Under the pieces are notes generated by a model. That model searched no databases and was not told where the DNA came from. It saw only the letters and a list, made by a program, of their open reading frames with translations. 28,582 bases of DNA from a virus, in IMG/VR virus record IMGVR_UViG_3300046003_007225, positions 1-28,582 of that record. One strand, 5' to 3'. Numbering within the stretch: the stretch's first letter is position 1; every line of letters starts with the position of its first letter. Shown piece after piece: positions 1 through 21,257 of this stretch. A program made the translations under genes and the position numbers.

Positions 1-714
1 GCCAGATGTTCCAGTAGTTCCTGATGTTCCGCTTGTTCCTGATGTACCACTTGTTCCTGATGAGCCATCTATACCACTTGTTCCTGATGTGCCAGATGTT
101 CCTGATGTGCCTGATGTTCCAGTAGTTCCTGATGTTCCGCTTGTTCCTGATGAACCGTCAATACCACTTGTACCAGACGTTCCAGTTGTACCAGATGTTC
201 CACTTGTTCCTGATGTGCCAGATGTTCCAGTAGTTCCTGATGTTCCGCTTGTTCCTGATGTACCACTTGTTCCTGATGAGCCATCTATACCACTTGTTCC
301 TGATGTGCCAGATGTACCAGATGTACCTGAAGTTCCTGATGAGCCATCTATACCACTTGTTCCTGATGTACCAGATGTACCTGAAGTTCCTGATGAGCCA
401 TCAACACCACTTGTTCCTGATGTACCAGATGTTCCAGTAGTTCCTGATGTTCCGCTTGTTCCTGAAGAGCCGTCTGAACCTGATGTACCGGAAGTTCCAC
501 TAGTACCACTAGAACCATCAGTTCCCGAAGTTCCTGATGTGCCACTTGAACCATCCATACCTGATGTACCCGATGAGCCGTCTGTACCTGAAGTACCTGA
601 TGTGCCATCTGTACCGCTAGTTCCTGAAGTTCCGTCTGTACCGCTAGTTCCTGAAGTTCCGTCTGTACCTGAAGAACCTGAAGAACCAGAACTTCCTGAA
701 GAACCACTTGAACC
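1..714 (-). repeat. collagen-like Gly-X-Y tract 2 (at least 79 triplets, runs off the window)
   Basis: This is the second Gly-X-Y tract of the same protein, starting at residue 772 with GSS triplets and moving to GTS, GTD, GID and GTT. It is still in frame at base 1, so the tract and the protein continue outside the window. Confidence 0.93.
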
Positions 715-3027
715 TTGTGCACCTACAAGACAAAGAGTAACTCCTGCCTGTGTTTTATAATTAGGACTTTGAGAATATGTAATAACCGCAATCAAATCTC
801 CTGTTGAAGCGGTATAACCGCTAATTATCATATACTCTATAATATCATCAGGCGCATATACACTTAATGTTTGTCCAGGACCCCATGCCATATTTGGATA
901 TGAAGGCCCGTTATAGGGTTGTCCTACCGATTGAAAATAATAATCTCCAGATAAAAATGGTGTACAAATTAAGGGCGATGTACCAGAGCTTCCTGATGTT
1001 CCTGAGCTACCACTTGTTCCTGAAGAACCTGAACTACCATCTGTACCACTTGTTCCTGAAGTTCCGTCTGTACCGCTAGTTCCTGAAGTTCCATCTGTAC
1101 CTGAAGTACCTGATGTGCCATCTGTACCTGAAGTTCCATCTGTACCGCTAGTTCCTGAAGTTCCATCTGTACCTGAAGTACCTGATGTGCCATCTGTACC
1201 TGAAGTTCCATCTGTACCGCTAGTTCCTGAAGTTCCATCTGTACCTGAAGTACCTGATGTGCCATCTGTTCCGCTAGTTCCTGAAGTTCCATCTGTACCG
1301 CTAGTTCCTGAAGTTCCATCTGTACCTGAAGTACCTGATGTGCCATCTGTACCTGAAGTACCTGATGTGCCATCTGTACCGCTAGTTCCTGAAGTTCCAT
1401 CTGTACCTGAAGTACCTGAAGTTCCGTCTGTACCTGAAGTACCTGATGTGCCATCTGTTCCGCTAGTTCCTGAAGTTCCGTCTGTACCTGAAGTACCTGA
1501 TGTGCCATCTGTACCTGAAGTACCTGATGTACCATCTGTTCCACTTGTTCCTGAAGTTCCATCTGTACCTGAAGTACCTGATGTGCCATCTGTTCCACTT
1601 GTTCCTGAAGTTCCATCTGTACCTGAAGTACCTGAAGTTCCATCTGTTCCGCTAGTTCCTGAAGTTCCGTCTGTTCCGCTTGTTCCAGAAGTTCCCGATG
1701 AACCATCTGCGCCACTTGTACCAGAGCTTCCGTCAGTTCCGCTTGTTCCAGAAGTTCCCGATGAACCATCTGTGCCACTTGTACCAGAGCTTCCGTCAGT
1801 TCCGCTTGTACCAGAAGTTCCCGATGAACCATCTGTGCCACTTGTACCAGAGCTTCCGTCAGTTCCTGAAGTTCCAGATGTACCACTTGAACCATCAATA
1901 CCCGAAGTTCCAGATGTGCCACTTGAACCATCAATACCCGAAGTTCCAGATGTACCTGAAGAGCCGTCCGTACCTGAAGTTCCCGAAGAACCGTCTGTCC
2001 CACTAGTTCCAGATGTGCCAGACGTACCCGATGAGCCGTCTGTACCACTTGTTCCAGAAGTTCCGCTTGAACCGTCAGTTCCACTCGTACCGCTTGAACC
2101 ATCTGTTCCGCTTGTACCAGAAGAGCCGTCTGTTCCGCTAGTTCCTGAAGTTCCGCTGCTTGAGGTCCCCCCTGTTACAGTAAGAGTAACATTACCTCCC
2201 CCGTTATCAATAAGTGACATTCCTGAAAAAGTCATACCAGTAACTGATGTTACTAGTGTTTCTCCAACAACTCCAACAGATAAAGGAGAACTAGAAGTAA
2301 ACCCTGTAACCTCAATAGTGAGACCACCGGCACTGTTAAGTGTCAAAGTCTCATTTCCTAAATTGAAGGTTCCTCCGGTTATTGGCGCAGTAAAACCAGA
2401 TATACTTAAAGTACCTCCAGTATTATTATATAAATCTAAAATTGAGGTTGCAGAATAATACGTTCCTCCTGTAATTTGCCAATCAGTTCCATAAAATATT
2501 CTCCATCTAGCATTTTCTCTTGTAACCCCGTTTACCCCCTCGATAGTTGAACCCGTCCATGCCGATATAAAATTTCGGCCAGCTTGAGAACGGCTATTCA
2601 CTGTAGTGGTATACTCATTTTCCGTTTTTGCGGAACTACCCGTTAAACCTGATAATGAATCCCATAAAATTTCATAATTAGGAATTGTATATTGGTAAAC
2701 TGTTTGCGTCTCTTGAACGAAAACATGCATACCTAGTCTTCTTCTACCAGAAGATATGTTGTCTGAATTGAGTGTGATTATATCCGGTGAAAATGCCGAG
2801 CCTGTACCTATTGTTAGTTGAATAGGAATTGTATTTGCCGATAATTGAATCGTTGCTGGATATGTTGCTGCAGTTAAAACTAACTCTAAATCATCTAAAT
2901 TCCAAACCTCCATGTATCCTCCAATATTCAAAACAGAAAAAGTGTTACCGAAAGTGACCGTTCTCCCTACTGATTCTGCACCAGATAATTGGACGCCAGT
3001 GATTGGATTTTTATATATTAATGACAT
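1..3027 (-). CDS. collagen-like tail fibre protein, partial (C-terminus beyond left edge)
   Basis: The minus-strand frame from the ATG at 3027 is open to base 1, at least 1009 codons, and has no stop within the window. Residues 1 to about 291 form a non-repeat N-terminal region rich in Thr, Ser, Gly and beta-prone segments, probably the virion-attachment part. Residues 292 to 683 are an uninterrupted Gly-X-Y tract of about 130 triplets, mostly GTS, GTD, GSS. Residues 684 to 771 form a non-repeat insert with aromatic residues and two Cys. Residue 772 to the edge is a second Gly-X-Y tract of at least 79 triplets. Proline is essentially absent from the tracts, so a bacterial or phage-type collagen helix without hydroxyproline is expected. 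It is the last gene visible after the baseplate genes, consistent with a host-binding fibre. Long open frames on both strands of the repeat are low-complexity shadows. The collagen-like nature is directly readable; the fibre role is inferred from context. Confidence 0.9.
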   Translation of the reverse strand, partial: MSLIYKNPITGVQLSGAESVGRTVTFGNTFSVLNIGGYMEVWNLDDLELVLTAATYPATIQLSANTIPIQLTIGTGSAFSPDIITLNSDNISSGRRRLGMHVFVQETQTVYQYTIPNYEILWDSLSGLTGSSAKTENEYTTTVNSRSQAGRNFISAWTGSTIEGVNGVTRENARWRIFYGTDWQITGGTYYSATSILDLYNNTGGTLSISGFTAPITGGTFNLGNETLTLNSAGGLTIEVTGFTSSSPLSVGVVGETLVTSVTGMTFSGMSLIDNGGGNVTLTVTGGTSSSGTSGTSGTDGSSGTSGTDGSSGTSGTDGSSGTSGTSGTDGSSGTSGTSGTSGTDGSSGTSGTDGSSGTSGTSGIDGSSGTSGTSGIDGSSGTSGTSGTDGSSGTSGTDGSSGTSGTSGTDGSSGTSGTDGSSGTSGTSGTDGSSGTSGADGSSGTSGTSGTDGTSGTSGTDGTSGTSGTDGTSGTSGTDGTSGTSGTDGTSGTSGTDGTSGTSGTDGTSGTSGTDGTSGTSGTDGTSGTSGTDGTSGTSGTDGTSGTSGTDGTSGTSGTDGTSGTSGTDGTSGTSGTDGTSGTSGTDGTSGTSGTDGTSGTSGTDGTSGTDGTSGTSGTDGTSGTSGTDGTSGTDGTSGTSGTDGTSGTSGTDGTSGTSGTDGSSGSSGTSGSSGTSGSSGTSPLICTPFLSGDYYFQSVGQPYNGPSYPNMAWGPGQTLSVYAPDDIIEYMIISGYTASTGDLIAVITYSQSPNYKTQAGVTLCLVGAQGSSGSSGSSGSSGSSGTDGTSGTSGTDGTSGTSGTDGTSGTSGTDGSSGTSGMDGSSGTSGTSGTDGSSGTSGTSGTSGSDGSSGTSGTSGTTGTSGTSGTSGVDGSSGTSGTSGTSGTSGIDGSSGTSGTSGTSGTSGTSGIDGSSGTSGTSGTSGTSGTTGTSGTSGTSGTSGTTGTSGTSGIDGSSGTSGTSGTTGTSGTSGTSGTSGTSGIDGSSGTSGTSGTSGTSGTTGTSG
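715..978 (-). other. 88-residue non-repeat domain inserted between two collagen tracts
   Basis: The same reading frame as the flanking Gly-X-Y tracts loses its periodicity here and encodes residues 684 to 771 of the fibre protein. The segment holds Trp, several Tyr and Phe, and two Cys, and its composition suggests a compact beta-rich domain. It may be a mid-fibre knob or receptor-contact domain. I do not recognise its family. Confidence 0.75.
979..2154 (-). repeat. collagen-like Gly-X-Y tract 1 (about 130 triplets)
   Basis: Reading minus-strand codons, every third residue is Gly and the other positions are almost only Thr, Ser and Asp, with an occasional Ile. At DNA level there are nested near-repeats of 9, 18, 27 and 36 bases, and Gly codons alternate between GGT, GGA and GGC. 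Such a tract can expand or contract by slippage or recombination, so its length may vary between related phages. Confidence 0.95.
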
Positions 3028-3054: not shown

Positions 3055-4131
3055 TCATGTTTTTGTATCACCTTTAAAATATAATGATGTTCCCAATGGA
3101 ACGACCGCAGGTAAAATAAAATTCCAAAGAACCCTATAAACACCAGATGGTATTACACATCCTGAAGGTACCGTTACGTTTATCGCGGCAAGTGAAGATA
3201 ATGGTGCAAAATCATTAAATACTGATTGAGAGCATGCAGCAGTTCCAACGTCGATTGTCATGTTTGTTAATGTACCACCAACACCTGCCAATGGTACCCA
3301 AACTGTGTAATTGTATTGTTCGTTAGGGTCAACATCCGTTGAGGTAACTTCAATAGTACCGAAAGTATATTGACTCTGTGCACAACCGAAAGAATCCGTA
3401 CCTGAACCCGAAGCTTGTCTTATCGCTCCACTTAAAGTAGACACGTTGGTTATGAAATTACCAACTGAACCACTCCATCCCGAATATTGAACATAGATTG
3501 CCATATCAGCCGCGAAATTTGAAGTACCTGGTGTTCCTGTGTTTTGGAATCCAAAGTATTCTGTAGCTCCATTATCAAACATGTATTGACCCAAATCATT
3601 TTGGGAAGTTGGGTTTTGTGGTTCAGGGAACACATATCCTTGGAAAGAGGCAGATGAAGGTGTTGGTGTTTGTGTTGGTGTTTCAGTATTTGTTGGGGTT
3701 TGAGTTTGTGTTGCGGTTGGAGTTTGCGAAGCATTAGGAGTTGGTGTTGTTGTTGGTGTTGTTGTCGGAGTTTCAGTATTTGTTGGTGTTGTTGTCGGAG
3801 TTTCTGTATTTGTTGGTGTTGGTGAAGGTGTGTTAGTAATCGTTGGAGTCGGGGTTGGTGTACCGTTTGATGGAGTTGGAGTTGGGGTACATTCAAATGT
3901 AACAACTACTCCATTCAACATTTGTGTTCTTGTCAGTCCTGAATAGTATATTGTTGCCGCAGAGAAAAGTGTTGGGTATAAACTATAATAAACATCAAAA
4001 GGCCCGATGGCATTAGAATTAGGGGCTAGTTTTACTAAATAAGAAGTACAACCCGTAATAGTGACTTGTTGTTCGACATCATTATCACAACTTGGGGCGG
4101 TATTAACAACGAAAATGGAGTATAAAGACAT
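3055..4131 (-). CDS. virion adhesin-like protein with Thr/Pro-rich stalk
   Basis: This 358-residue protein has three visible parts. Residues 1 to about 81 are an N-terminal domain with four Cys. Residues 82 to 160 are almost pure Thr/Pro with some Asn, Ser and Glu, forming an extended stalk that could carry O-linked glycans. The rest is a C-terminal domain with Cys residues and many aromatic, Gly and Asn residues. There is no signal peptide, as expected for a virion protein. The start is an ATG; no Shine-Dalgarno is visible and a 6-base-pair hairpin abuts it. It lies between the collagen-like fibre gene and the SprB-repeat gene. Its N-terminus begins MSL, as do those two neighbours, which may hint at a shared assembly signal but could be chance. 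It is probably a tail-tip or fibre component. I do not recognise the C-terminal domain, and no catalytic motif is evident. Confidence 0.85.
   Translation of the reverse strand: MSLYSIFVVNTAPSCDNDVEQQVTITGCTSYLVKLAPNSNAIGPFDVYYSLYPTLFSAATIYYSGLTRTQMLNGVVVTFECTPTPTPSNGTPTPTPTITNTPSPTPTNTETPTTTPTNTETPTTTPTTTPTPNASQTPTATQTQTPTNTETPTQTPTPSSASFQGYVFPEPQNPTSQNDLGQYMFDNGATEYFGFQNTGTPGTSNFAADMAIYVQYSGWSGSVGNFITNVSTLSGAIRQASGSGTDSFGCAQSQYTFGTIEVTSTDVDPNEQYNYTVWVPLAGVGGTLTNMTIDVGTAACSQSVFNDFAPLSSLAAINVTVPSGCVIPSGVYRVLWNFILPAVVPLGTSLYFKGDTKT
3652..3888 (-). repeat. Thr/Pro-rich stalk coding repeat, with a 30-base tandem duplication
   Basis: This stretch encodes the TP-rich linker (residues 82 to 160). 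Bases 3751-3780 and 3781-3810 are tandem copies differing at a single base and encode two copies of a ten-residue Asn-Thr-Glu-Thr-Pro-Thr unit. The near identity suggests a recent duplication and thus length variability. Confidence 0.9.
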
Positions 4132-4241: not shown

Positions 4242-4556
4242 TTAAATATCTATATTGAAAGTACAGACTACCTCATCAATTATAATTTCAAAAGCACAAC
4301 CAAATGTACAATCAATAATATGGAAAACTTCACACCCATTATTATCAGTTATAATTAACATTATTTGTGGCGCATAATCAAATATACTTGGAATAGTTAC
4401 ACCGCTCACACTATTATTTAGTGTTACAGTAGGTGGTACAGTTGTACCTGTTATAGTAGCAATTGCAGTCCTATTATTTCCATATACATCAGCCATGGAT
4501 ACGGTCATAGGATAAGCTGTTGACCCAGATATTGTATCAATCCTTATTTGTATCAT
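4242..4556 (-). CDS. small virion-associated protein of unknown function
   Basis: This protein of 104 residues is called from the ATG at 4556, which overlaps the TGA of the upstream SprB-repeat gene as ATGA, a typical translational coupling arrangement. An in-frame GTG three codons upstream is less likely. The sequence is beta-prone, rich in Thr, Ile and Val, with four Cys in its C-terminal third. A segment ending Asn-Asn-Gly-Cys resembles the closing strand of the SprB-like modules next door, so it may be a single related Ig-like unit; this is weak. No enzymatic motif is visible. Coupling to the SprB-repeat gene suggests the products work together in the tail. Confidence 0.75.
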   Translation of the reverse strand: MIQIRIDTISGSTAYPMTVSMADVYGNNRTAIATITGTTVPPTVTLNNSVSGVTIPSIFDYAPQIMLIITDNNGCEVFHIIDCTFGCAFEIIIDEVVCTFNIDI

Positions 4557-6697
4557 GTTAGGCACATTATATCGTAAATAATCTTGAGCTCCACTATAAT
4601 CTCTTGATTGTTTAGGGTTGTATTACCTGGTTGTGTTTGGATTGTAATTTGATTATTAAGTTGGTCTACAATTACGTTACCAACACCTGATACACTTAAT
4701 AATAAATCTTTAATTGTGTCAAACCACAAACTATCTGAAGGTACTTGTGTGAGTGTAGTTCCAGTATAAAATTGGTCTTGGATAATTGTTCCTAAAGGTT
4801 GTACTTTAACTATTGCAATAAATTCAGCTGTTACCAAGTCACAAGTTGTGTTGCCGGATGTCAAGTCAGCAAATCCCTCATTCAACATTTGTAACATTCC
4901 AAGTTTGGTTGGTGATTGTATTCTGAATATTTCGGAACCCATAACATAACTTTGGTATGAAGCATATGATTTTGCACAAGTTATATTTGTGGTTCTACTT
5001 AATGAACAACCGTCATCATCTATTATTGTACAAGTATAAGTTCCTGCCGAAAGTCCCGAAATTTGTATCTGTTGAGGGTTATTTGAAACGTTGGAGGACC
5101 AATTGAAAGAAAATGGTGGTGTTCCTGAAGAAATAAAAGCCGTAATTCTACCATCAGAACCGCTCCCACATGATGTTGTATATAGACTGAAATCTAATTG
5201 TTCGGATTGCTCTACAAATATAGTTTGTATTTGGGTACACCCTGTAGCATCAACAACACTTATTGTATGTTGTCCTGATGTCAAATTTGAAAACGTTGCC
5301 GCACTTGATGTTGTATCTATAACACTCTGAACCCCTCCATCTAAAATAAAATCGTATGGTGACGCCCCTCCCACTGATTTTGTTACCAAGATTTTACCAT
5401 TGTTTTGTCCACAAGTTGTTCCTGATTGACTCAACGATATTGTAAATCTATTTTCATTAATTATGATAATTTCAGTTAGAGAGTAACAAGCTGTTGGTGT
5501 TGATGAGTCTTGGATAACAACGGAATATGTTCCTGAAGCCAAATTTCTCCACACATAACTTGTTTGAGAGTTTGTTATTGTTTGTGTTGAAGCATCAGGA
5601 AGAATAAGTGTATAAGTATAAGGGAGTGTACCTCCATCTACACTTGCGGTAATTGAACCATTATTACTTGAACAAGTTGAATTAGTACCAATAACACTAA
5701 CACTTGATATACCTTGTGGCGTTGCTAGAGTGGTTCCGACATTAATTTGACAAAAAGCAGCATCTGTTACCAAAAAGTTGTACTGACCTGATGAGAGATT
5801 TGAGATTGTATATTCTTGTGAATATGACACTGCAAAATCACCAGTTGAAGCTGAATAGTAATAAGGTGCGGTTCCCCCTGTAATTGTCAGGGTTATTTGT
5901 CCATTTGCCTGAAGACAAGATGGTGTATTCGCACTGAAAGCACCAAAACCCAAAGAAGAAATATTTGTTAAAACACCATTTCTTATTTGTTGACATCCAG
6001 ATGCGTCTGTAATCGCAACAGAATACTGACCAGCGGTTAATCCCGTAATCGTGGAACCTGTTTGTCCATTGCTCCATAGATATGAGTATGGCGCTTGTCC
6101 TGTTAATCCTGTCACTAATATTTTACCTATTGGTGTTCCCCCACAACTTGAGTTTGGAACAACATACAATCCAAAATCAAATGGACCCGAATCATCTATT
6201 ATAAATGTTGGCGTTACTCCTGTACAACCTCCAAGGTCCAAAGCCATTATTGAATAGGTTCCGGCACTTAAATTTTCAAATACGGCAGTTGATGTCGTTG
6301 TTATTGCGGATGTGATAAAAGAATTACCCGAATCGAAAAGATAATAGTTTGTTGAAGAATAATCGGATGTAGAAGTTGCAGTTACTGAACCGTTTAATAA
6401 AGAACACGTAGTATCATTAACCTGAACTATTGATGCACAAATTCCATCTGAAACAGGAATGTTAATAAAAAATTCTTGGTTTGTTGGAAGTGTTGAATCA
6501 TTAACCCTAATAACGTAGGTATTTGGGTATAACCCTCCTCTAAATGATTCCAATACGGCTTGGTCTTCCCCAAGACTTGGCGTTGTCCACTCTACTGTGT
6601 ACGGTGGAGTTCCACCTGTAGGAACAACAAGAATCGCGCCCACACCTACATTTGAGCAGTCTCCAGTTACACTTAAATTATAATTGAAAAGTGACAT
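4553..6697 (-). CDS. tail or baseplate protein with seven SprB-like Ig-fold modules
   Basis: In this 714-residue protein, residues 14 to 564 consist of about seven tandem modules of 50 to 85 residues. They follow the SprB-repeat pattern: an opening Cys, NG-x-I-x-(V/T), a G-G-T-x-P-Y-x-(Y/F) segment, then a (N/G)-L-(S/T)-(A/S)-G-x-Y segment and a closing D-x-x-G-C. Cys pairs near 98/158, 185/235, 261/316, 342/404, 429/487 and 510/564 bracket modules. SprB repeats are known from the mobile surface adhesin SprB of gliding flavobacteria. The last 150 residues are different and repeat-free, perhaps a baseplate-docking domain. The gene starts at the base where the upstream 996-residue gene stops (1-base overlap) and is coupled downstream by ATGA. 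A role in host surface contact is inferred from modules and position. Confidence 0.85.
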   Translation of the reverse strand: MSLFNYNLSVTGDCSNVGVGAILVVPTGGTPPYTVEWTTPSLGEDQAVLESFRGGLYPNTYVIRVNDSTLPTNQEFFINIPVSDGICASIVQVNDTTCSLLNGSVTATSTSDYSSTNYYLFDSGNSFITSAITTTSTAVFENLSAGTYSIMALDLGGCTGVTPTFIIDDSGPFDFGLYVVPNSSCGGTPIGKILVTGLTGQAPYSYLWSNGQTGSTITGLTAGQYSVAITDASGCQQIRNGVLTNISSLGFGAFSANTPSCLQANGQITLTITGGTAPYYYSASTGDFAVSYSQEYTISNLSSGQYNFLVTDAAFCQINVGTTLATPQGISSVSVIGTNSTCSSNNGSITASVDGGTLPYTYTLILPDASTQTITNSQTSYVWRNLASGTYSVVIQDSSTPTACYSLTEIIIINENRFTISLSQSGTTCGQNNGKILVTKSVGGASPYDFILDGGVQSVIDTTSSAATFSNLTSGQHTISVVDATGCTQIQTIFVEQSEQLDFSLYTTSCGSGSDGRITAFISSGTPPFSFNWSSNVSNNPQQIQISGLSAGTYTCTIIDDDGCSLSRTTNITCAKSYASYQSYVMGSEIFRIQSPTKLGMLQMLNEGFADLTSGNTTCDLVTAEFIAIVKVQPLGTIIQDQFYTGTTLTQVPSDSLWFDTIKDLLLSVSGVGNVIVDQLNNQITIQTQPGNTTLNNQEIIVELKIIYDIMCLT
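5006..6658 (-). repeat. tandem SprB-like module region
   Basis: This stretch codes for the seven Cys-bracketed modules. They are clearly related at protein level but diverged at DNA level, with no long nucleotide repeats. The array is therefore old, unlike the nearly identical collagen and Thr/Pro repeats to its left. Confidence 0.8.
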
Positions 6698-9687
6698 TAA
6701 TTTGTATTACAATTTATATCAATATTTATTCCAACACTCAAAACAACTGATTCATTTTGGTTTCTTGGTTCACAGGTCATACTACTTATCGTTAAGAAGT
6801 TTCCATTTAAGAAATAAGTAAAACCATAATCATATAGTTGTGGTAGTGTAGATATAAGAGCACTTCTCCATTGATTTGTGGTTGGTACATCATTCTGTCC
6901 GTATCCTGTATAAAATTGATAGAGAATGATTTGGTCTCCACCTATCTTCAAATCAACATACCACTTTGAATATATCGAACTCATAATACATTGTGTTGGA
7001 GATACGTTATTAGAAACCAATAAGTTGTTAACCCTATTAGCCAAAACAGATTGGAAGTTTGACACTGTTGTGTCTCCGTTTAACCAAGCATAGACATAAT
7101 AATCAACAAGTTCAGTTGCGCAACTGTAATCAAATAGATTTCCAATTACAAAACAAGGACTAACAGCTATCGGTATAAACTGACATCCTCTTTGTCTTCT
7201 ATAAACAAATTTTTGTTTATGAAGGACAGAATTTTCAAATCTTTCTCCTCCATTCCAAATTGTGGTGGCAGGAATCATTTGTTCAACTAGTTTTGTCCAA
7301 TATGGACCAATTCCTTGGATGTAATCAATTAGTTTTTGGTATGTATATTTGTTATTTGGTACACCAATTGTTTCTTCTTGTTCTATATACTTCCACCAAA
7401 TAGATTGTAGAGTTGGGTACCCTCCTGTTTTTCCATCAGTAATGTATTGTCTGTTTCTAGCATTAATCATATTCTCCCAAAAAGTTTGAGAAAACTCGAA
7501 GAATGTTTTTTTCTTTGGCTCGGGTTTTATTTCAGTCCAATCAACACCTCCAGGTACGGGATAACCAACTGTAAGACCTGATTCAGGAATCGGGTAATCA
7601 TATCTTCTTGATTGAGTCCACACATCATAAACCAATCCTTGACCCGCGTTCAGAAATACTTCAACATTTTTAACATTCAAGACAAGTTTATCGTCCTCAA
7701 CATAGTAATAGGCATTGTAATCGGCTTGAGTTGATGTCCTTAATCTGTCGTCATCTTGTAACCAAGACTTATTATTATCTATAACTCTACGAAGTTTGAA
7801 ACCCTCGTTCATATATGGAAAATCTCTGAACCTATCTAGATATATTTGACCATAAGTAAAAGGTTGTAGTTGAGTTTGAATGTCATAATTCTGTCCCGTA
7901 TATATTTGACCTGAAAGAACAACTTCATCGGGACTTCTATGTGATGGAGTTTGTTCGTACCAACCTGCCCCTTTTTGGAAAAAAAATGATTCAGTGTCGG
8001 GTGGTGCCTTTGGATATCCCTCCGCATCCATAGGATATGTTGAAACTGTTACATTGACATCTTCATATGTTGAGGAAGTGGTAAATGCAGTAAACACTTG
8101 TCCTTTTACTTTAAATGTATCTCCAGGGATATATGCAGGCTGAACATCTTCATAAGTACCTCCTGATATTTGAGCAAACTGTACATAAAATTGGTCTAAA
8201 TTTATTCTTTGGTCTGCCAAATAAACATGTTCGTTATATTCAATAAGTGATTCAGGTGCACCAATCAATCTCATAAGAAACTCTACGGACCTTCTTGTAC
8301 CCTTTGATTTGAAAAGATAAGCCGCGTTGAGTATAAGATTCCTATAGAAAGCGTAATTTATCTCTGTCGGTGTCAAAGCCCTTGCATATCCAGGATATGT
8401 AGGGGTTGCTGTATTACCAAAAATGGACTCCAAAAAGTCTTCGTCCGTTATTGGTGAGTAGTTGGAAGACCAACCTAGTGTTTGGGCCAAATTTACAAGT
8501 AACTGCGATGGAATATCATTTGATGGATTGTAGTTAACGGAGTTCATAAACGCCAACGCATCAATGAATTGTTTTACTTGGTCAAAACTTCTACCATAAA
8601 TTTGAAAAACCTTTTCAACCTTCCTATCAAGTGTATCAAACTCTTTCAGGGAGCCACTAACAAGGAATCTTGATATAAGATTTGTCTTAAAACTATCTAA
8701 ATTCTCAGCAATTAATTGCAATTTTTCAAGATAATTGTCAAACTCATATGATTTGATGTCCAAATTCCAAGGTCCTTCTTTAGGCCAAGTGACTTCTTGA
8801 TAATTTGTATAGAAATTTCCCGCTTCATTTTGTTGTGGGACTTGGAATATTGCGGTGTACTCGGGTCTTATCAATCTATTTAATAAAAACTTTTCAACTT
8901 CGTCAAATGATTCTGTAAAAATTTTATCGGCAACCAAATCGTTAGGTCTAATTTGATATTCTATTATTGTGGTGGACCCTGTTCCAAATGGAGCACCTTC
9001 TACATAGAATTCAACATAACCAGTTGTAAGTGTTTCTGATGGATTAAATGAAACAATTCTAAAAATATCATTTGTTTCATCTTCTAAAGGAATTGCAACA
9101 CAATAATCCAAGTAAGTATTATATAAATTTCTGTAAGGTGATTGTGTAATTTCTCTAACAGACAAATTGGTTGACGCACTCAAACTATAATCCACACCAA
9201 ATGGATTGTTAAACCTATCTACATTAATTTTAAAATATGTTTCATTATTTACGGAGTCGTAGATTATGTCATAAGCGGTATAACCTGAACTAAAAAGACC
9301 ATTAATATGTTCTACATCAAGAGATGCGGGGAAATAATTAATTATTTTGGTTATAGATACTTCAAATCTTTTTGACAGTGAACCATAAAGTGAAAAGTTT
9401 AAAACTTGTGATACGTCATAGTTTGGATAAACTCTAAATTGTGTTGCTTGAATTCTTCTGCTTTCAGCCAAAGACTCAATGTTCATACCATCTAAAGTCA
9501 TTGGTTCGGAGAAAGCCCCCACATTAAACTTTCTGTTTACCTTTTCAACAATACCTGTTGTAAACTCAAAGTTTCCTTGCGTTAATCCTCCCCCCTCAAC
9601 TGTTTGTAAACCTACAATGTTATCAGAGAATGTACCTGCTCCGTTACCGGGTCTTGGTGGATAAAAATATTTACTTCTCGATGCCAT
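6697..9687 (-). CDS. large baseplate protein with P2 gpI-like (tail protein I) region
   Basis: This 996-residue protein starts at an ATG that overlaps the stop of the upstream gene by one base. The N-terminus (about residues 1 to 330) is unrecognised and beta-rich. Residues about 350 to 475 carry a pattern I associate with the tail protein I family of baseplate proteins: a helical segment, a region reading as loss of contact at N-P-S-N-D-I-P, then a helix with A-A-Y-L-F-K-S-K-G-T-R-R-S and an I-G-A-P-E turn. The remaining 500 residues include Tyr/Trp-rich segments and a Cys-containing C-terminus. In phages with this domain the protein helps form the inner baseplate, and larger versions are common in phages of Bacteroidota. 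It lies between the wedge-type genes and the adhesin-like genes, fitting a scaffold to which fibres attach. The family assignment is from motif memory, without alignment. Confidence 0.75.
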   Translation of the reverse strand: MASRSKYFYPPRPGNGAGTFSDNIVGLQTVEGGGLTQGNFEFTTGIVEKVNRKFNVGAFSEPMTLDGMNIESLAESRRIQATQFRVYPNYDVSQVLNFSLYGSLSKRFEVSITKIINYFPASLDVEHINGLFSSGYTAYDIIYDSVNNETYFKINVDRFNNPFGVDYSLSASTNLSVREITQSPYRNLYNTYLDYCVAIPLEDETNDIFRIVSFNPSETLTTGYVEFYVEGAPFGTGSTTIIEYQIRPNDLVADKIFTESFDEVEKFLLNRLIRPEYTAIFQVPQQNEAGNFYTNYQEVTWPKEGPWNLDIKSYEFDNYLEKLQLIAENLDSFKTNLISRFLVSGSLKEFDTLDRKVEKVFQIYGRSFDQVKQFIDALAFMNSVNYNPSNDIPSQLLVNLAQTLGWSSNYSPITDEDFLESIFGNTATPTYPGYARALTPTEINYAFYRNLILNAAYLFKSKGTRRSVEFLMRLIGAPESLIEYNEHVYLADQRINLDQFYVQFAQISGGTYEDVQPAYIPGDTFKVKGQVFTAFTTSSTYEDVNVTVSTYPMDAEGYPKAPPDTESFFFQKGAGWYEQTPSHRSPDEVVLSGQIYTGQNYDIQTQLQPFTYGQIYLDRFRDFPYMNEGFKLRRVIDNNKSWLQDDDRLRTSTQADYNAYYYVEDDKLVLNVKNVEVFLNAGQGLVYDVWTQSRRYDYPIPESGLTVGYPVPGGVDWTEIKPEPKKKTFFEFSQTFWENMINARNRQYITDGKTGGYPTLQSIWWKYIEQEETIGVPNNKYTYQKLIDYIQGIGPYWTKLVEQMIPATTIWNGGERFENSVLHKQKFVYRRQRGCQFIPIAVSPCFVIGNLFDYSCATELVDYYVYAWLNGDTTVSNFQSVLANRVNNLLVSNNVSPTQCIMSSIYSKWYVDLKIGGDQIILYQFYTGYGQNDVPTTNQWRSALISTLPQLYDYGFTYFLNGNFLTISSMTCEPRNQNESVVLSVGINIDINCNTN

Positions 9688-18942: not shown

Positions 18943-20781
18943 TTAGCTCATTGTAACTGACTGGAAGTTTTTAACTGAAACTCTTATATCCTTATTTGGA
19001 TATCTTATTTGGTAAACTTGAGAAGGTTGAGCAAATATTGTGTCATCAACCGCACCAATTTTTTTTGTTACTGGGTCTGAATATTCCATAGATGTTTCAA
19101 ATGATGAATATTGTCCTCCAACCTCATTAAAAACTTCCAAGTTTGTAACTGTGAGTACTCCATTTTGATTTTGAATCAAACTTTGTAATTCTGAAAGATA
19201 AATGTTTTGACCTAGTTGTCTTACTTGTGGGTCAAAATAATTAGAAACAACGTCTATAACTGCAGAAATTACTTGTCCAGAGTTTTGAGCAGTATCAAGA
19301 ACAATAGATATGTCTATACTTACATCAATTACTTCCGCGGTAAAGATGGAAATATAGTCGTTCATCATTCTGTAATTGGAAAGATAATTTGCAATGTTTT
19401 GTTTTAATGTATTAGAAACAATACTTGTTAATTTACCTGACGTATCATAAGATAAAATCTGAATCAGAATCTTATTATCATTTTCCGTAATAGCCACTTT
19501 TGCCGGAGCACCGAATTGAGCTGGCATATTTCTTATTATTGACTCGTAATCTTGTACAGTCACAGCTCTTTTTTGGGCTGAAAAATTAAACGATACATAA
19601 TTTCTTACTTCTTCTAGTGATGGAACTCCGGCACCACCAATAGCCGCAGTTACGTTATTACATCTTAAAGAATTTACCACAGATGAGTTAGTTGATTCTG
19701 AAGGACCATTAACAAAAAAACTTACAGTTCCAACCTGATTAATTACGTTAGTACCCAAGTTTGAACTTAACCCCCCACCGACTCTGTACTGAATGAAGAG
19801 TGTGGAATTTGGACTCAGAGTGTTACCCAAAGAAACGTTGTTACTATATTTTTGAATGTCCATTGTGAGTCCTAATGTGGTGAACTCATCTAAAGCATCT
19901 TGTGCAGTATTTGTACCTCCACCAAATGTCATCTTCTTGAATCCTTCGGCTGTATACTCTGAAATAAATCTATTACTTGTTTGAATATATCTACCAACCT
20001 TGATTCCTGGTTGGTCTGTTACTTTTGTTGGGTCTTCTACAAAAATTCTATCTTCTGCCAATGCATCGACTTCATACCATCTATTATCTAACCCCAAAAA
20101 CTCGGCTGTGGTTGGTATGTTTGAATAGTCAGTTCCGTCTTTCAGTAAAACACTTGTAATACCTAATACATTTTTTTCAGGAAGAAATAGTTCGAAAAAA
20201 GGTCTAACATCACTAGGTGTAACTACCTTTTTGAAAACTTTGGTGATACCATTTACAACAAGTTCTCTTTTTGTGATAGTATAATTAAGAAGAACTCCGT
20301 TTGCATTAAAATTTGGTATTTTAAGTCTATTTGGGAACCCTTGAGCATTATATGGAGACGCAAAATCTATATCATAAATGTTTTCAAAAACAAGACCAGC
20401 ACCTACAACTTGTGACCCTCTTAATAATTGTCCAAGATATCTTTCATCTTCCTTATCACCAAAAGCGGGTACTGTAATTGAAAAGTCAACGAGAGCGGTA
20501 GATGGTCTTTGTCCCGGTAATTTTAAACCATAAGTCCTCGCAATATTATATATTGATGACCTTTGTTGTGCATATTGTAAAACAGTCTCTTGAATACTTC
20601 TATCAATGTGGTAGTGGAGATTGTCAGCCACAGCAGCATTCAAATCTAAAAAAACTGAAAAAACTGAAGCGTCGTTGAAGTCTTGGATTAATTCAGGATA
20701 ATAGGTTCTGACATAATTTATTAAGTCGGTTCTTATTGCTTGAAAATCACGAGAAGTATATGATATTTTACGATTTGCCAT
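18943..20781 (-). CDS. 6: baseplate wedge protein, gp6-like
   Basis: This 612-residue protein is close in size to T4 gp6 (660 residues). Its N-terminus reads as the gp6/baseplate J-like pattern: Y-T-S-R-D-F near residue 8, then D-L-I-N-Y-V, F-N-D-A-S-V-F-S-V-F-L-D-L near 35-48, a D-N-L-H-Y-H-I-D-R segment, and a Y-G-L-K-L-P-G segment near 83-90. gp6 dimers join wedges into the ring of the contractile baseplate. The ATG is separated by only five bases from the gp25-like stop, the gene order 25-6 found in T4. A 90-base gap follows. Recognition is by motif and order. Confidence 0.88.
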   Translation of the reverse strand: MANRKISYTSRDFQAIRTDLINYVRTYYPELIQDFNDASVFSVFLDLNAAVADNLHYHIDRSIQETVLQYAQQRSSIYNIARTYGLKLPGQRPSTALVDFSITVPAFGDKEDERYLGQLLRGSQVVGAGLVFENIYDIDFASPYNAQGFPNRLKIPNFNANGVLLNYTITKRELVVNGITKVFKKVVTPSDVRPFFELFLPEKNVLGITSVLLKDGTDYSNIPTTAEFLGLDNRWYEVDALAEDRIFVEDPTKVTDQPGIKVGRYIQTSNRFISEYTAEGFKKMTFGGGTNTAQDALDEFTTLGLTMDIQKYSNNVSLGNTLSPNSTLFIQYRVGGGLSSNLGTNVINQVGTVSFFVNGPSESTNSSVVNSLRCNNVTAAIGGAGVPSLEEVRNYVSFNFSAQKRAVTVQDYESIIRNMPAQFGAPAKVAITENDNKILIQILSYDTSGKLTSIVSNTLKQNIANYLSNYRMMNDYISIFTAEVIDVSIDISIVLDTAQNSGQVISAVIDVVSNYFDPQVRQLGQNIYLSELQSLIQNQNGVLTVTNLEVFNEVGGQYSSFETSMEYSDPVTKKIGAVDDTIFAQPSQVYQIRYPNKDIRVSVKNFQSVTMS

Positions 20782-20786
20782 CTAAA

Positions 20787-21257
20787 TTAAATATTGATAA
20801 TAACAAAATCACTCTGAGCAAATGTTTGTCCATTTGTAGAATAATCAAGTCTTATTTTTGCGGTGTATTCTGACGTACCTTTACCAGGAGCCCTAAAGAT
20901 TGATGATTCACTTGTCCCTACGAAATTTTGTCCGGTTGCAATATCAACTTCCTCTTGTGGGTCTGCGGGTTCTATGGTTAAGCTATTAACAAGTAGATTC
21001 GGCATAAATTGTTCTATCGAATCTCTAATGTCGGCTTCAATTGCATCGAAGGTCAATCCGTCAAAAGGTTCAAATAAAAATTCATAAATTCTTGTACCAA
21101 ATTGGGGTAAGTAATATCTTGAGCCCTTCCTTGTCAACAAAAGATGTATCAAGTCAGATTTAATTTGTTGTTTTTCAAATTCAGTAAGTTCGAGATAGTC
21201 CCCACGTTTAGAATCTCTAAAGGGGAAATTTAAACCATATGTAATTCCATCTGCCAT
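20787..21257 (-). CDS. 25: baseplate wedge protein, gp25-like
   Basis: This 156-residue protein is in the size range of T4 gp25 (132 residues). It has the gp25/GPW family signature: a helix ending L-L-L-T-R-K-G-S-R near 39-47, then L-P-Q-F-G-T-R near 50-56, F-L-F-E-P-F-D near 60-66, and a following helix with I-E-A-D-I. The C-terminal half is a beta region typical of the family. gp25 sits at the sheath-baseplate junction and nucleates sheath assembly. The ATG follows a TATTTAT motif by five bases with no Shine-Dalgarno. It is followed immediately by the gp6-like gene. Confidence 0.9.
   Translation of the reverse strand: MADGITYGLNFPFRDSKRGDYLELTEFEKQQIKSDLIHLLLTRKGSRYYLPQFGTRIYEFLFEPFDGLTFDAIEADIRDSIEQFMPNLLVNSLTIEPADPQEEVDIATGQNFVGTSESSIFRAPGKGTSEYTAKIRLDYSTNGQTFAQSDFVIINI

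Follow-up and report, generated by a model that had tools for sequence, protein, structure and literature searches.

The window analysed here, a 28,582-nucleotide (28.6-kb) viral contig that is probably a fragment, encodes a 714-aa protein with seven SprB-type modules and a C-terminal domain (CTD). Its open reading frame is complete and runs on the minus strand from 6697 to 4553; the initial annotation had placed it at 4553-6697, which is exact, but the strand had to be corrected to minus, a plus-strand reading being ruled out by its many stops. Transcription order starts at the high-coordinate end with T4-like replication genes (single-strand binding protein, UvsX-like, exonuclease, and DnaB-like helicase) and ribonucleotide reductase. 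Next come the gp25-type and gp6-type wedge proteins, several large family-less proteins, and the 996-aa protein, whose stop overlaps the 714-aa gene by one base. Downstream of the 714-aa gene lie those for the 107-aa protein, a TPTPT-linker protein of 358 aa, and a collagen-like tail fibre. The features are as follows.

20787..21257, minus strand: gp25-type baseplate wedge protein
18943..20781, minus strand: gp6-type baseplate wedge protein, which anchors the cluster as baseplate
6697..9687, minus strand: 996-aa baseplate-cluster protein, directly upstream, with a C-terminus related to the CTD
4553..6697, minus strand: 714-aa protein, seven SprB-type modules and CTD
6428..6685, minus strand: module M1, residues 5-90; homologous to the other modules; SprB E 1.5e-4 alone
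6188..6427, minus strand: module M2, residues 91-170; most diverged; no SprB match alone
5957..6187, minus strand: module M3, residues 171-247; SprB E 3.6e-7 alone
5708..5956, minus strand: module M4, residues 248-330; SprB E 1.3e-8 alone
5453..5707, minus strand: module M5, residues 331-415; SprB E 4e-9 alone; last of the swapped cassette
5207..5452, minus strand: module M6, residues 416-497; SprB E 0.0074 alone; homologous to M5; co-inherited with the baseplate genes
4976..5206, minus strand: module M7, residues 498-574; SprB E 3.2e-5 alone; best conserved
4556..4975, minus strand: phage-specific CTD, putative docking domain, residues 575-714
4242..4565, minus strand: 107-aa protein, overlapping the 3' end of the 714-aa gene; conserved in most relatives

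Residues 5-574 of the 714-aa protein form seven homologous beta-sandwich modules, each bracketed by conserved Cys, with boundaries cut by Cys pattern and conservation. About seven such modules with the SprB pattern had been proposed from the sequence, and seven were confirmed. Pfam family PF13573 (SprB) matched the whole protein with E = 4.3e-29 (100.3 bits; curated cut-off, 28), far above generic Ig models and above the runner-up family (1e-11, 45 bits), and it was matched by all 42 aligned orthologues (E ≤ 0.001). Searched singly, M1, M3, M4, M5, and M7 had SprB as their top Pfam family, and M6 preferred BiPBP_C, with SprB ranking third; M3, M4, and M5 pass the PF13573 cut-off on their own, M1, M6, and M7 stay under it, and M2 has no match. 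The family profile of M2 matches M6 (E 1.9e-9) and M5. Profile-profile comparisons across module positions, built from the 42 orthologues, gave 99% for M3-M7 and M5-M6, 98% for M2-M6, and 51% for the weakest pair, M1-M2; none of the module profiles matched the CTD. The best conserved module, M7, has a mean pairwise identity of 0.66. The 14 bracketing Cys are kept in 40 to 42 of the 42 orthologues, and the modular pattern as a whole is well beyond chance. Cys accounts for 2.5% of the 714-aa protein, compared to 0 to 1.2% across the stretch of genes that begins with the 996-aa gene and ends with gp25. AlphaFold2 predicted seven beta-sandwiches and an alpha/beta CTD of a different fold (mean pLDDT, 82); since the pTM was 0.36, the arrangement of the modules is not predicted by this model. 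As a separate observation, the seven strictly conserved Cys pairs occur in a protein whose synthesis and assembly are expected to be cytoplasmic, and these pairs may or may not form disulfides.

A single-sequence search with the 714-aa protein gave no viral relatives; these were gathered via the neighbour gene (80 viral loci) and later via a family alignment. In the neighbour-gene set, the SprB-repeat gene comes next wherever the DNA suffices, and exactly seven modules plus the CTD are present in 66 of 66 complete genes and in 3 nearly complete ones. The family-alignment search found at least 384 viral contigs encoding a relative, and in a second set of 80 kept loci, which shares contigs with the first, the 996-aa gene lies upstream in 80/80 and seven modules are present in 79/80. 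The one locus scored as having no modules (among L253-L332, the second set) is probably an artefact of a tblastn match that starts in the related C-terminus of the neighbour; the match of L267 exceeds the gene by about 300 bases. The tandem array sits among tail and baseplate genes, in the gp6/gp25 cluster and with the collagen-like fibre downstream, and its conserved position after the 996-aa gene bears out the baseplate setting given by the initial annotation. Relatives of 742 to 1133 aa carry extra end domains, often on TPTPT linkers. Reading these length variants as repeat expansions was rejected, as the module count stays at seven and the added length is terminal.

A few observations on the surrounding genes may be added here. 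TPTPT-rich linkers attach extra end domains at window positions 3055-4131 (minus strand) and in extended orthologues (L018, L038, L069, L072, and L083); such add-ons also occur N- or C-terminally on the SprB-repeat protein itself, and the added domains vary among relatives. A very long collagen-like ORF of GTSGTDG repeats (window 1-3027, minus strand) has tail-fibre PHROG matches and is cut at the contig end. The 107-aa protein (window 4242-4565, minus strand) ends in D-x-x-G-C and shows weak profile matches to M7 (73%) and M6 (60%); it may be a lone diverged module of Ig-like type, but the match is too weak to count it as an eighth module. The 996-aa protein was suspected, via a short motif, to be P2 gpI, but it does not match PF09684, and neither a solved relative nor a solid PHROG match was found for it.

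The CTD is a 140-residue alpha/beta domain. Modelled alone with AlphaFold2, it consists of a helix, two long strands, a helix, and three strands. The 996-aa protein has a related C-terminus (BLASTP E 0.002; profile-profile 85%, E 6.5e-6), and direct profile matches between the two were found in 14 loci (best, 5.6e-6). Pfam gave no match to the CTD, and a fold search against solved structures gave no significant one, although several phage tail proteins recurred at Z 4-5, below the trusted level. Docking is therefore proposed from the gene neighbourhood, the relatedness to the neighbour, and co-inheritance. Adjacent genes of a baseplate cluster with related ends suggest that both proteins occupy the same or equivalent sites, and the 996-aa protein is a possible docking partner. 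The docking-like C-terminal 150 residues of the initial annotation thus correspond to a separate, phage-specific domain that behaves like a docking domain, although its length is 140 residues rather than 150.

Where the modules came from can be traced in part. A scan of bacterial genomes, examined for the best 71 of 381 relatives, led to named or metagenomic Bacteroidota records (one is titled only "bacterium"); modules were present in 71/71 of these loci and the CTD, sought in the same loci, in 0/71. Modules found with the same profile in bacteria had two or more Cys in 1804 of 1813 cases. A tree built from 111 modules placed each phage module position in a group of its own, bar one stray M6 row, which suggests that all seven had probably been assembled by the time this phage group diversified. 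The deep branches lack resolution, and the test did not reject one common clade for the phage modules (AU p 0.73). The idea of a borrowed host module is plausible: the module was probably drawn from the pool of Bacteroidota surface proteins, and capture from a host is the natural inference. However, the tree is too weak to name the donor or the direction of transfer.

Close relatives show that the two parts of the gene have different histories. M1-M5 are exchanged as a cassette, and M6-M7 and the CTD remain linked to the baseplate genes: in the mosaics, M1-M5 are 53-70% identical, compared to 84-97% for the 996-aa gene and M6-CTD, and the breakpoints are the gene start and the M5/M6 junction. 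Between L010 and L048, nucleotide identity is about 90% along the 996-aa gene, falls to 50-77% where the SprB gene starts, and is back to 87-96% near the M5/M6 junction and on through the CTD and the 107-aa gene; a similar divergent block spans M2-M5 in L013 versus L028. M1-M5 lie more than 10 points below M6-CTD in 17 of 55 close pairs and the reverse holds in none of the 55, the 17 pairs tracing to about two clear independent events. The block is as divergent as the family background (65% between L010 and its nearest relative in M1-M5), and it therefore looks like replacement rather than rapid evolution. Since M1-M5 are swapped while M6-CTD stays, we read them as an exposed and a docking half; probably, the C-terminus docks and the N-terminal arm is exposed. 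The fixed seven-module plan and the swap point at M5/M6 would make this split a concrete one. The gene is under purifying selection (median omega, 0.16); the 996-aa neighbour has about half that value (0.07), which leaves room for some adaptive exchange of M1-M5. Along the operon, identity in close pairs drops from 0.89 (996 aa) to 0.73, 0.63, and 0.50, with length differences counted as mismatches.

Taken together, our data point, with somewhat better than even confidence, toward a baseplate-docked, seven-module arm at the tail base of a myovirus that probably infects Bacteroidota. This reading accommodates the fixed copy number and position of the protein, its domain in common with the neighbour, and the cassette swap. 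In our model, the CTD and M6-M7 would dock on the periphery of the baseplate, probably beside or through the 996-aa neighbour, and the seven beta-sandwiches, constant in number, would give an arm of set length. M1-M5, as the cassette swapping suggests, would face outward, touching the host surface weakly and repeatedly and/or serving as a holder for fibres whose genes lie downstream, and finer specificity would be set by the more variable downstream genes. The modules would derive from the Bacteroidota surface-protein pool and have been fixed at seven before the phage group diversified. A building block of host adhesins thus appears to serve as a fixed part of phage attachment gear, in a large, uncultured group of at least 384 viral contigs.

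How much of host recognition lies in such an arm is a matter of weighing. That the protein is the primary receptor-binding adhesin, with M1-M5 determining host range through recognition of a host polysaccharide or surface protein, is a tentative alternative that we hold to be rather unlikely: the cassette is replaced between close relatives and phage Ig-like arrays are often discussed as host binding (PMC6949934), but the copy number is constant, selection is purifying, and the gene is less divergent than those downstream, the collagen-like fibre among them. The same constancy, purifying selection, and more variable downstream genes lead us to prefer a role as structural arm or secondary adhesin to one as the main determinant of specificity. 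An entirely structural role, in which the protein is a spacer or fibre holder and its likeness to SprB reflects a sturdy, disulfide-capable module with no host contact, would fit the seven fixed modules, the purifying selection, and the bacterial BACON domains, the nearest precedent, which were found to act as linkers (PMC6949934); the exchange of M1-M5 would imply that the outer half is under some pressure, and we consider this role unlikely.

The initial annotation also suggested two possible targets for the module: host exopolysaccharide, here taken as that handled by gliding adhesins, and the gliding apparatus itself. The module family is indeed that of SprB, and the gliding machinery has been put forward as a phage receptor in flavobacteria (PMC7345892; PMC13288928). 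However, SprB repeats are general surface modules of Bacteroidota: further T9SS substrates contain them, in one example next to polymorphic toxins (PMC7073777), and the closest match among solved folds comes from a grappling hook. A shared module is therefore not a sign of SprB binding, mimicry, or a shared ligand, and the link to gliding or exopolysaccharide was not supported; we regard it as very unlikely. Equally doubtful is the bolder version, in which M1-M5, derived from Bacteroidota surface proteins, serve host recognition as a swappable cassette and bind moving gliding adhesins or the glycans these handle; if true, the phage would attach to and ride the gliding machinery. Least credible of all, and barely worth entertaining, is display on or secretion from the infected host instead of incorporation into the virion. 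Although the module family is otherwise typical of secreted proteins and the protein is Cys rich, its place in the baseplate operon is conserved and its phage-specific CTD is related to the neighbour. The N-terminus enters M1 directly, with no basic start, and neither inspection by eye nor a crude hydropathy scan made a signal peptide evident. The C-terminus gave no match to the T9SS sorting domain, and a weak Por_Secre_tail match falls within M7.

To set the proposed tail-base arm beside known systems, the SprB family PF13573 (SprB of Flavobacterium johnsoniae and many Bacteroidota surface proteins) has the same module sequence, Cys bracketing, and tandem layout. Unlike those proteins, the phage protein has a fixed seven modules, a phage-specific CTD, and a place in a baseplate operon, and it has neither the T9SS sorting domain nor an evident signal peptide, and is thus not an SprB-type secreted adhesin. 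A phage relative is already known by database name only: UniProt calls A0A6J5LD72 (BFVD/UniProt), from an uncultured Caudovirales phage, "SprB repeat"; at 714 aa, with a full-length alignment and 32% identity, it almost certainly belongs to the same family. Our literature search turned up no publication that describes SprB repeats in phages. As a precedent, the BACON tandem arrays of crAss-like phages come closest, tail-associated Ig-like modules that are stable at eight copies in one lineage and expanded through duplication and horizontal transfer (PMC6949934). Both are tandem Ig-like modules of a Bacteroidota surface-protein family among tail genes, but domain family and phage group differ, and the docking-like phage-specific CTD and the M1-M5 swap are features of the protein described here. 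SprB would thus be the second Bacteroidota surface-module family, after BACON, built into a phage tail region.

The top solved fold match (E 3.3e-19; Z 11.2 for 9flu) was the grappling-hook protein GhpA of Aureispira sp. CCB-QB1 (PDB 9flp, 9fly, 9flw, and 9flu), likewise made of tandem beta-sandwiches and part of a Bacteroidota surface filament. The likeness is one of fold: identity is 10-16%, a profile search against the GhpA sequence gave no match at E 0.01, and GhpA is a component of a filament on bacterial cells rather than of a virion. Among virion proteins, Ig-like decoration and whisker proteins of phages (5lxk, "Decoration protein"; 9occ, neck whiskers gp24; Hoc-like phrog_3945) have the core GG-x-PYTYxW ... 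AGxYxVTVTDS in common with the modules, but they match far more weakly than SprB, lack Cys bracketing in the aligned stretches, and occupy another place on the virion. Two further viral frames with SprB-repeat matches were noted: a second ORF (592-aa open frame) at about 7966-8628 of contig G005, the record of L015, and a 1675-aa open frame with 14 such matches in LR756502, a 642-kb uncultured phage (L168:19364-24388). The latter has no CTD match and, used as a query, found no further viral SprB proteins.

The module matches in Bacteroidota and the starts without Shine-Dalgarno make a Bacteroidota host likely, in agreement with the connection proposed from the sequence. Shine-Dalgarno motifs precede 7% of 15 window genes, compared to 2% in Flavobacterium phage immuto and 44% in Microcystis phage Mel-JY01, an indirect host indicator from a small sample. 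SprB arrays beside baseplate genes may help tie uncultured phages to Bacteroidota hosts. Immuto and Mel-JY01 both carry related baseplate wedge proteins, and the SprB repeat, sought in both, was absent. The gp6-type wedge protein of Mel-JY01 (L166) is 28% identical to that of the window, about as close as that of immuto, although the start sites of Mel-JY01 have Shine-Dalgarno motifs; related baseplates thus occur in phages of hosts from different phyla.
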